A DNA stretch of 34,058 nt from Bacteroidales bacterium (GTDB taxonomy: Bacteria > Bacteroidota > Bacteroidia > Bacteroidales > WCHB1-69), in the NCBI GenBank assembly GCA_024400785.1, contig JAKSME010000009.1, positions 1-34,058 on the forward strand, given 5' to 3'. The notes below the pieces were generated by a model, which saw only the letters and a list, made by a program, of their open reading frames with translations, was not told the DNA's origin and ran no database searches. Below, piece after piece: positions 10,080-11,753 of the stretch. Every line of letters starts with the position of its first letter. The stretch's first letter is position 1. Both the position numbers and the translations under genes were made by a program.

Positions 10080-10087
10080 TACTTTTG
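10080..10087 (+). promoter_or_regulatory. -7 box for the DRTGG/PHP/GHKL unit
   Basis: TACTTTTG followed by CGC fits TAnnTTTG. It lies 46 bases before the start of the DRTGG gene. A TTTC at 10059-10062 could be a weak -33 element. Confidence 0.6.
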
Positions 10088-10133
10088 CGCCTAATTTTTA
10101 TACAATATATTTTTATAACAAAAAAAGAAAAAA

Positions 10134-10469
10134 ATGACTGTTCAAGAATTAGTTGACATCCTGGGCTTGACCGTTTTTTGCGGAAAAGAAAATCTGAATC
10201 GCGAAATCAAAGGCGGTTACACATCAGATTTGCTGAGTGATGTGATGGGGCACGCCAAAGAAGGCATGATTTGGATTACGCTTCAAACCCATAAAAATGT
10301 GCTCGCCATCGCCTCCCTCAAGGAACTTTCCGCCATCTTGCTTGTAAAAGACAGCAAGCCTGAAGACGACATGCTCGAACAGGCACGGGAAGAAGGGATT
10401 CCCGTTCTCGGCACCAGTGAACAGACTTTTGAAACCACTGGCAAAGTTTACCAACTCATTCACAAATAA
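10134..10469 (+). CDS. Stand-alone DRTGG-domain protein
   Basis: 111 residues. The protein is essentially one DRTGG-like domain: LVDILGLTVFCGKENLNREIKG at the start, GGYTSDLLSDVMGHAKEGMIWIT in the middle and a final GIPVLGTSEQTFETTGKVYQL. This is the fold also found in the middle of pyrimidine-regulated CBS/phosphotransacetylase proteins, where it is thought to bind a ligand or partner. No catalytic residues are evident. It is the first gene of a three-gene run: the PHP gene's GTG start is two bases after its stop. The function is unknown; a sensory or regulatory role next to the GHKL ATPase is inferred from context only. Confidence 0.8.
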   Translation: MTVQELVDILGLTVFCGKENLNREIKGGYTSDLLSDVMGHAKEGMIWITLQTHKNVLAIASLKELSAILLVKDSKPEDDMLEQAREEGIPVLGTSEQTFETTGKVYQLIHK

Positions 10470-10471
10470 AC

Positions 10472-11209
10472 GTGCAAACCTTTAAAGCAGATTTACACAA
10501 CCACACTCTGTTGTCGCCCTGCGGTGACCTGGACATGACGCCAGACTTCATCATCGAAGAGGCGCTCAAGAAGGGTGTTGACATCATCGGCATTACCGAC
10601 CACAACTGCACGCGGCACTGCCGGTTGGCGGAACATTATTCGCACAACCGTGACATTTTCGTACTCTGCGGCGCCGAAGTGACCACAAAGGAAGAGGCAC
10701 ACTGCATCGCTTTCTTTGAAACCCACGAAACCCTCGACCTCTTTCAGAAATTCCTGGACGAACATCTTCCCGACATCCCCAACGTCCCCGATATTTTCGG
10801 CGACCAGGTGCAAATCAACGAGGAGTTTGAAATAGTTTACGAAGAGCCCAAACTTCTCACCTCCGGTCTCGATGTCAACATCGAAGGCATCGCCGCCAAA
10901 GTGATGGAACTCGGCGGAATCTTCATCCCCGCCCACATCGACAAGATGAAAAACAGTGTCATCTCCCAACTCGGTTTCATCCCCTTCGACCTGCCCTACG
11001 ACGCGGTGGAACTTTCCAAACACGGTGACAAAGAGAAGATTCTCCAAGAGCACCCCTACCTCAAAAATAAAATGTTCACCCGCGCTTCCGACGCACATCA
11101 ACCCGACACCATCGCCACCGCACCCTGCTACTTCGAACTCGAAACACGCTCCTTCGCCGAAATCAGAAAAGCACTCCACGGCGAGGAAGGACGGCTTGTT
11201 AAACTGTAA
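10472..11209 (+). CDS. PHP-domain phosphoesterase
   Basis: 245 residues from a GTG start. Metal-binding motifs of the PHP fold are present: DLHNHTLLSPCGD (D7, H9, H11), GITDHN (D43, H44), the region around the conserved Glu in LCGAEVTTKEEAHC, PAHIDK and SDAHQPD near the end. These supply ligands for a two- or three-metal phosphoesterase site (compare YciV/TrpH-like enzymes). The substrate is not known; in this family it can be a nucleotide 3',5'-bisphosphate or a short RNA. It is sandwiched between the DRTGG and GHKL genes with spacings of 2 and 13 bases, so the three are probably one transcript. Confidence 0.88.
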   Translation: MQTFKADLHNHTLLSPCGDLDMTPDFIIEEALKKGVDIIGITDHNCTRHCRLAEHYSHNRDIFVLCGAEVTTKEEAHCIAFFETHETLDLFQKFLDEHLPDIPNVPDIFGDQVQINEEFEIVYEEPKLLTSGLDVNIEGIAAKVMELGGIFIPAHIDKMKNSVISQLGFIPFDLPYDAVELSKHGDKEKILQEHPYLKNKMFTRASDAHQPDTIATAPCYFELETRSFAEIRKALHGEEGRLVKL

Positions 11210-11222
11210 TTTGAAAATTGAA

Positions 11223-11753
11223 ATGAAAGATCTTTCAATGCACATCATGGACATTTTGCAGAACTCCACCCGCGCCGGTGCCAAAGACGTGACGCTGGAA
11301 GTGCTGGAAGACGCCGCTGCCGACACCCTCACCCTCCGCTTCATCGACAATGGCTGCGGCATGGATGCCGACACAGTGCAAAAAGTCATCAACCCGTTTT
11401 TCACCACACGAACCACCCGCAAAGTCGGCCTCGGCCTGCCTCTGCTGAAACAAAATACCGAACAAACCGGCGGAAGCCTCGACATCCAGTCGGAAGTGGG
11501 AAAAGGCACCACCGTCAGCGCTGTTTTCGGCCTTTCCCACCTCGACCGTCCCCCCATGGGCGACTTGGCCGGAACCGTCGTCCTTACCGCCTCCGCCTAC
11601 CCCGACATCCATTTCATCTTCCATTATAAAAACGAAAAAGTGGACTACACTTTCGACACAGACGAAGTCAATGAAGCCCTCGACGGCATGTCGATTCAAG
11701 AGCCCGAAATCATTCAATACCTTATTGAAATGGTACGGGAGAATATAAATTGA
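11223..11753 (+). CDS. Stand-alone GHKL (histidine-kinase-like) ATP-binding protein
   Basis: 176 residues from the ATG at 11223. The N-box is MHIMDILQNSTRAGA (N14), G1 is DNGCGMD at 42-48 and G2 is VGLGLPLLKQ at 68-77, ending with GKGTTVSAVF. There is no dimerisation/H-box domain, no transmembrane helix and no signal peptide, so it is not a complete histidine kinase. About 70 residues follow the ATPase fold (from near 105), with a Phe/Tyr-rich strand pattern and no motif I know. Such proteins include anti-sigma kinases (SpoIIAB/RsbW type). A longer frame reaching back to 10956 overlaps the PHP gene and is not used. Confidence 0.85.
   Translation: MKDLSMHIMDILQNSTRAGAKDVTLEVLEDAAADTLTLRFIDNGCGMDADTVQKVINPFFTTRTTRKVGLGLPLLKQNTEQTGGSLDIQSEVGKGTTVSAVFGLSHLDRPPMGDLAGTVVLTASAYPDIHFIFHYKNEKVDYTFDTDEVNEALDGMSIQEPEIIQYLIEMVRENIN

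Follow-up and report, generated by a model that had tools for sequence, protein, structure and literature searches.

A detached DRTGG-PHP-GHKL gene trio in a Bacteroidales genome and the cassette that accompanies NADH-linked electron-bifurcating enzymes

A 34,058-nucleotide stretch of the genome of a rumen Bacteroidales bacterium (contig JAKSME010000009.1 of assembly GCA_024400785.1; hereafter the window) encodes three adjacent proteins: a DRTGG-domain protein, a PHP-domain metallo-phosphoesterase and a stand-alone GHKL ATPase. Comparison of gene content and sequence slightly favours the reading that this trio is one half, now separated, of a cassette, DRTGG'-RsbW-[HydS]-DRTGG-PHP-GHKL, which accompanies NADH-linked electron-bifurcating complexes of the Bfu/HydABC type, and that in this genome it would act in trans, together with DRTGG'-RsbW-HydS of contig C114, on the HydDBAC hydrogenase of contig C117. 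An earlier note, made from the sequence of the window alone, had proposed that the three genes form a regulatory module. Their regulatory appearance and their association with [FeFe]-hydrogenase genes are upheld by co-occurrence and linkage, but the module is larger than the trio and is not specific to hydrogenases. The larger module adds a second DRTGG protein (DRTGG'), an RsbW/SpoIIAB-like kinase (RsbW) and usually HydS.

All three genes lie on the forward strand. The DRTGG gene (111 aa; 10134-10469) ends 2 bases before the GTG start codon of the PHP gene (245 aa; 10472-11209), whose stop is separated by 13 bases from the ATG start of the GHKL gene (176 aa; 11223-11753). Both the positions and the gaps had been read correctly in the earlier note, and its family assignments are sound (Pfam DRTGG, 9.7e-10; PHP, 4.2e-7; HATPase_c, 3.6e-16, residues 8-102). 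A pattern search finds a promoter-like -7 box, TACTTTTGC, on the same strand at 10080-10088, ~46 bases upstream of the first start codon, that of DRTGG. The proposal of a single promoter box ahead of the trio is borne out as to its fit to the Bacteroidota consensus TANNTTTG, but the box is weak evidence because the window holds 12 matches to this type of pattern against 5.9 expected. Where calculable, dN/dS between the window copy and its relatives L122 and L126, and for GHKL also L124, is ~0.05-0.10 for all three genes, with some dS values saturated, indicating strong purifying selection. In the closest relative, a Bacteroidales genome from the water-buffalo rumen (JAFZWE010000005.1; L122:10737-12312), two genes missing from the window copy are inserted between PHP and GHKL, one DNA methyltransferase-like and the other restriction-endonuclease-like (translations judged by eye).

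The source genome (2.1 Mb in 179 contigs, 89% complete) carries [FeFe]-hydrogenase genes on two contigs, and the trio is linked to neither locus. Contig C117 encodes HydD (2Fe-2S)-HydB-HydA-HydC, with a HydB/HydC diaphorase of the clade that accompanies the trio elsewhere. Contig C114 encodes DRTGG' and a 136-aa RsbW/SpoIIAB-like ATPase (L003:7132-7898) as well as HydS, and the genome also encodes the HydF maturase. The statement in the earlier note that no hydrogenase is present is therefore true of the window but not of the genome, which has HydDBAC and HydS on other contigs. HydS is a 456-aa hydrogenase-like protein that keeps all H-cluster cysteines in its SFCPA, SPCAAK and ACDESCAGG motifs. 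A ferredoxin region lies at its N-terminus and an FeS domain at its C-terminus, with no PAS domain; the protein thereby combines the complete set of H-cluster cysteines with the two accessory Fe-S domains of an H2-sensing HydS. This layout fits that described for group D (M2e) HydS (PMC8163306; PMC13104023), and the protein is classed as a group D-like sensory [FeFe]-hydrogenase.

The distribution of the cassette was followed in 149 genomes of the order, drafts and MAGs that mostly represent each family by one or two members; the Fisher tests reported here are uncorrected for phylogeny. Orthologues were accepted at E <= 1e-40 for PHP, E <= 1e-45 for RsbW, E <= 1e-98 for HydS (with a clear gap beyond) and at least 64% identity for the HydB clade. 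Co-occurrence beyond chance in other Bacteroidota, on which the earlier proposal had been staked beforehand, is clear. PHP is present in 47 of the 149 genomes, mostly of different families, and its presence follows the HydB clade: 47 of the 60 genomes with this clade have PHP, versus none of the 89 without it (Fisher 3e-27). All 43 genomes with HydS have PHP (Fisher 3e-33). RsbW is found in 46 of the 47 PHP genomes and in none outside them (Fisher 7e-38), the one miss (G218) being a contig-end cut. Each set encloses the next: the HydB clade contains all genomes with PHP, and these contain all genomes with HydS and all with RsbW. Within the HydB clade, HydS occurs in 43 of 47 genomes with the trio versus 0 of 13 without it (Fisher 5e-10). 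Proteins matching PF02906 in general are more widespread, occurring in 101 of the 149 genomes, including all 47 with PHP. The enzyme can do without the trio, which is missing from 13 of the 60 HydB-clade genomes. The sensing of H2 is not fixed in the module either: besides G218, with its cut contig, three trio genomes (G180, G292 and G236) seem to be without HydS.

PHP is nearly always flanked by DRTGG and GHKL, and the grouping of the trio is far beyond chance. Genome G177 (L075) has HydS-DRTGG-PHP with no adjoining GHKL gene. In two genomes, G216 (L262) and G291 (L261), RsbW is 45% identical and extended at its N-terminus, and PHP and GHKL are absent; a DRTGG'-like gene and a HydS-like protein (27-30%) lie near HydC-HydB, and G291 also has a NuoG-like molybdopterin protein there. 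Genome G149 was considered as a natural experiment, with trio and HydS but no HydA, and was rejected: its HydB, 89% identical, is cut off by the end of a contig (C75:9-1463), and a gap in the assembly probably accounts for the missing HydA.

The usual gene order is DRTGG'-RsbW-HydS-DRTGG-PHP-GHKL-HydD-HydB-HydA-HydC, and in 41 of the 47 genomes the trio directly adjoins HydS and/or HydD-HydB(-HydA). The exceptions are the source genome, two members of its family (G149 and G266), G294, G243 (a 5-kb contig) and G180, where RsbW adjoins the trio and HydDBAC is on a separate contig. In the family of the source genome the trio is detached but intact, in the order DRTGG-PHP-GHKL (L122-L126) or PHP-DRTGG-GHKL (L127-L140, some of these loci being cut by contig ends), and in two relatives (L130 and L132) DRTGG'-RsbW-HydS still stands ahead of it. 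Because the genes remain adjacent even where they have been detached and reordered, the trio is well supported as a functional unit. The association with [FeFe]-hydrogenases that the earlier note had named for Clostridia and Thermotogae is very strong in Bacteroidota; among Firmicutes it is seen in a single Subdoligranulum record (L203), where DRTGG'-RsbW-HydS-DRTGG-PHP diverges from HydC-GHKL-HydD-HydB-HydA.

Several records raise questions of assignment. A 375-kb Parabacteroides distasonis 'plasmid 34' (NZ_OY725779.1; L202) that carries the cassette is probably a misassigned piece of chromosome, because gyrA and a Clp protease ATPase gene are aboard, and the Subdoligranulum 'plasmid 8' (OY725842.1) may be misassigned chromosome as well. 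Three MAGs titled Spirochaetales or unnamed bacterium (L184, L186 and L192) have a Bacteroidales-like cassette (54%) in the order GHKL-HydC-HydD-HydB-HydA, a possible case of transfer or misnaming.

The catalytic partner of the cassette varies. In one genome, G236, the alpha subunit of formate dehydrogenase (FdhA; L109:12746-15460) takes the place of HydA between HydB and HydC, directly downstream of DRTGG-PHP-GHKL and with no HydS. This FdhA has a NuoG-like front and scores 901 bits with TIGR01591 against a cutoff of 666. In another class of the phylum, PHP is present in 11 of 149 genomes from eight families, and there the cassette lies in NADH-linked Hdr operons; an HdrA-type partner is found in ~10 genomes, at least one of which also has [NiFe]-hydrogenase genes. 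One such locus (L254) reads HdrB, the front part of HdrA, DRTGG', RsbW, HydS, DRTGG, PHP, GHKL, NuoE, 2Fe-2S and NuoF, followed by NuoG/HdrA, radical SAM, VhuG and VhuA. In G637, HdrB and Vhu-type [NiFe]-hydrogenase genes flank the cassette. G504 and G643 have no HydS in the cassette, and their last subunit is a fusion of NuoG and HdrA, 1.1 kaa long; the whole genome of G504 contained no PF02906 protein. The order in G330, at a contig end, is the same as in these two. The identity of HdrA is given by direct PDB or NCBIfam matches in G448, G504 and G643, and by a matching Fer2/Fer4 Pfam pattern in G637 (with Hdr genes nearby) and G656; in the other genomes of this class it rests on an equally low score with the HydA model and on position, the contig of G604 ending before the gene. 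The same Pfam and PDB scans, by revealing FdhA and HdrA, ruled out that all neighbouring HydA-like genes are hydrogenases. With HydA, FdhA and HdrA as alternatives beside it, the NuoE/NuoF-like diaphorase is therefore the constant companion of the cassette, and because it is constant while the catalytic subunit varies, the module is not hydrogenase-specific. What is new here is that the cassette can have partners other than an [FeFe]-hydrogenase: it is independent of the catalytic subunit, and in the source family it stands in trans. In three of the Hdr-linked cassettes, those of G330, G504 and G643 (L216:8710-9639, L207:2548-3480 and L258:8466-9464), RsbW carries two CBS domains fused to its N-terminus, a hint that adenine nucleotides may exert control.

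In the DRTGG protein, ten residues are invariant among 28 sequences (Y29, D32, L34, S35, V37, W47, T49, H53, N55 and A60), within and around a conserved core, YxSDLLSDVMG...WITLQTHKN, of which the SDL(L/M)SDV motif is common to DRTGG and DRTGG'. Y29, D32, S35, W47, T49, H53 and N55 might serve as phospho-acceptor or ligand residues, and the protein matches parts of the HPr kinase and phosphotransacetylase models. In PHP, the alignment places invariant residues at every metal ligand (D7, H9, H11, D43, H44, E69, H77, H155, D207 and H209), so that the site is complete, and the AF2 model (pLDDT 91.6) has the PHP fold; the protein thus unites the fold and the H/D/E metal-binding set of a PHP phosphoesterase. 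Its best PDB match is EndoQ (5zb8, TMq 0.75), followed by RNase AM, BAD_1165 and TM0559. The predicted structure is accordingly closer to phosphoesterases of nucleic acids and nucleotides than to known protein phosphatases, including the PHP protein-tyrosine phosphatases. Pfam and NCBIfam scans assigned it to no CpsB/YwqE-type protein phosphatase family, and every NCBIfam score is far under cutoff. A simple protein-phosphatase reading finds no support in the fold search, and the idea that PHP reverses a phosphorylation is so far unsupported: the metal site is complete, yet the closest matches in fold are to EndoQ and RNase AM. Like the PHP domains of EndoQ, RNase AM and TrlF/Ppl, the window protein keeps the fold and the metal ligands; it differs from them in being a stand-alone protein of 245 aa that forms its own clade and is tied to redox operons.

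The GHKL protein has an N-box (HIMDILQNS), a G1 box (DNGCGM) and a G2 box (TTRTTRKVGLG), with D10, N14, D42, G44, G46, G69 and G71 invariant in 56 sequences, all of which match HATPase_c. That it lacks an H-box, as the earlier note had stated, is confirmed by the Pfam scan, which gave HATPase_c and no HisKA/DHp domain, so the protein does not qualify as a histidine kinase; a conserved histidine, H7, precedes the N-box asparagine and is no H-box. The AF2 model (mean pLDDT 93.9) was built from an alignment that omits two rows taken from plasmid records; its fold matches are histidine kinases, branched-chain dehydrogenase kinase, MutL/PMS2 and TopoVI-B. The C-terminal extension of ~70 residues that had been pointed out is real (residues 105-176; 11535-11750, forward strand). 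It is conserved in the 56 homologues, with D108 and G113 invariant and D114 and N174 nearly so, and is predicted to be ordered (pLDDT >90), with a helix at 115-125, strands at 130-136 and 141-145, and helices at 146-153 and 161-175. It matched no Pfam family and has no named relative.

For the signalling role of the cassette, the kinase activity, its substrate and the direction of control, we infer the following scheme as the most likely. HydS would sense H2, and the DRTGG proteins, some homologues of which carry CBS domains, would sense a ligand that is either a nucleotide or redox-related. RsbW, paired with DRTGG', and GHKL, paired with DRTGG, would act as switches, either through phosphorylation or through binding that depends on ATP; their targets would be their DRTGG partners and/or the diaphorase complex. 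PHP would remove the phosphoryl or nucleotidyl mark. The activity or synthesis of the bifurcating enzyme would in this way be tuned to H2 and to NADH/ferredoxin load. A phosphorylation cycle is plausible; the cassette has no recognisable gene for a DNA-binding output. In T. saccharolyticum, adhE expression and ethanol yield both change when hfsB, which encodes a HydS homologue, is deleted (PMC5707799), and in R. albus co-transcription of a sensory hydrogenase with ethanol and H2 genes has been proposed (PMC6776011); these reports make a metabolic output plausible. More tentatively, and as a possibility short of an even chance, DRTGG-PHP-GHKL with DRTGG'-RsbW may be a general control of NADH-linked (Bfu-type) bifurcation, independent of the catalytic subunit. 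It would act on the NuoE/NuoF diaphorase as a switch based on phosphoryl groups or nucleotides, for [FeFe]-hydrogenase, formate dehydrogenase or Hdr partners, with HydS as an optional H2 sensor, and could act in trans after breakup of the operon.

The constancy of the diaphorase, whatever the catalytic subunit, would also suit a cassette for assembly or repair, in which GHKL is an ATP-driven chaperone or switch that inserts FMN, Fe-S clusters or subunits into NuoE/NuoF, PHP clears a nucleotide by-product or damaged cofactor, and DRTGG is an adaptor. The GHKL family includes ATP-clamp proteins, MutL and TopoVI-B being among the fold matches, PHP is like nucleotide and nucleic-acid phosphoesterases, and the available text of PMC3315566 lists assembly as one option for the kinase-like HydE. 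Such a role keeps an appreciable probability but is unlikely, given that 13 HydB-clade genomes lack the trio, that the cassette is tied exclusively to the signalling-like proteins RsbW and HydS, and that the CBS-fused RsbW points to ligand-controlled regulation. The CBS domains would equally serve signalling by a small molecule, with PHP making or destroying a nucleotide signal that is bound by DRTGG and CBS and read by GHKL/RsbW, and with GHKL phosphorylating no protein. The nucleotide or nucleic-acid substrates of the fold neighbours of PHP and the DRTGG matches to HPr kinase and phosphotransacetylase models agree with this, but the intact ATPase motifs of GHKL lead one to expect ATP turnover or transfer, and we hold this reading to be quite unlikely. 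It is highly improbable that the trio is the leftover of a broken operon, its role in the source genome unrelated or lost: the separation from hydrogenases there and in most of the family and the restriction-modification-like pair within the trio of the closest relative fit such decay, but the continued purifying selection on all three genes, their retention together in two orders across the family and the co-retention of RsbW, HydS, HydDBAC and HydF speak against it.

The cassette reading has partial precedents. The hyd operon of Acetobacterium woodii encodes HydE (Awo_c27000), a histidine-kinase-like ATPase that is no part of the purified enzyme (PMC3315566, available text). The likeness, drawn from description, is that of a kinase-like ATPase with no hydrogenase similarity inside a bifurcating-hydrogenase operon, comparable to the GHKL gene between HydC and HydD-HydB-HydA in L203; the hydA-E operon differs in being described there with no DRTGG or PHP, whereas the window gene is unlinked. 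HydS gene sets (TamHydS, PMC8163306; R. albus, PMC6776011; hfsB, PMC5707799), in the parts of these papers available, resemble the present loci in having HydS beside kinase-like ATPase or phosphatase genes, and genetic evidence of altered fermentation is given for HydS homologues of these sets. DRTGG-PHP-GHKL is not described in those parts, and here the cassette can also lack HydS and accompany enzymes other than hydrogenases. In the Bfu family, as here, HydB/HydC-like BfuBC has exchangeable catalytic partners (hydrogenase, Fdh and others), and the terms kinase, phosphatase, PHP and DRTGG are absent from the main text of that paper (PMC9304861). A small GHKL kinase adjoining a small partner protein recalls the RsbW/SpoIIAB partner switch, and the cassette RsbW scores highest with SpoIIAB, under the cutoff. 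The cassette differs from that switch in having DRTGG instead of STAS as partner and PHP instead of PP2C as phosphoesterase; no sigma factor was recognised in the loci examined. In the open-access literature no paper came up on DRTGG, a PHP domain and hydrogenase together, and one came up on DRTGG and hydrogenase, with each term occurring once; the cassette is described in none of the papers found.

The signalling partners of HydS have only been proposed in the literature consulted. The gene set described here names likely ones: two ATPases, two DRTGG proteins and one PHP enzyme, which track the diaphorase and not the hydrogenase. The family of the source genome and P. distasonis show that the module is separable, and it could be deleted there with the enzyme operon left intact. 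The gene set is widespread and normally lies inside operons for NADH-linked H2, formate or reductant enzymes, and this pattern makes the target of the cassette testable. At stake is the control of bifurcating hydrogenases in fermenting bacteria of the gut and rumen, and hence the supply of H2 to methanogens.
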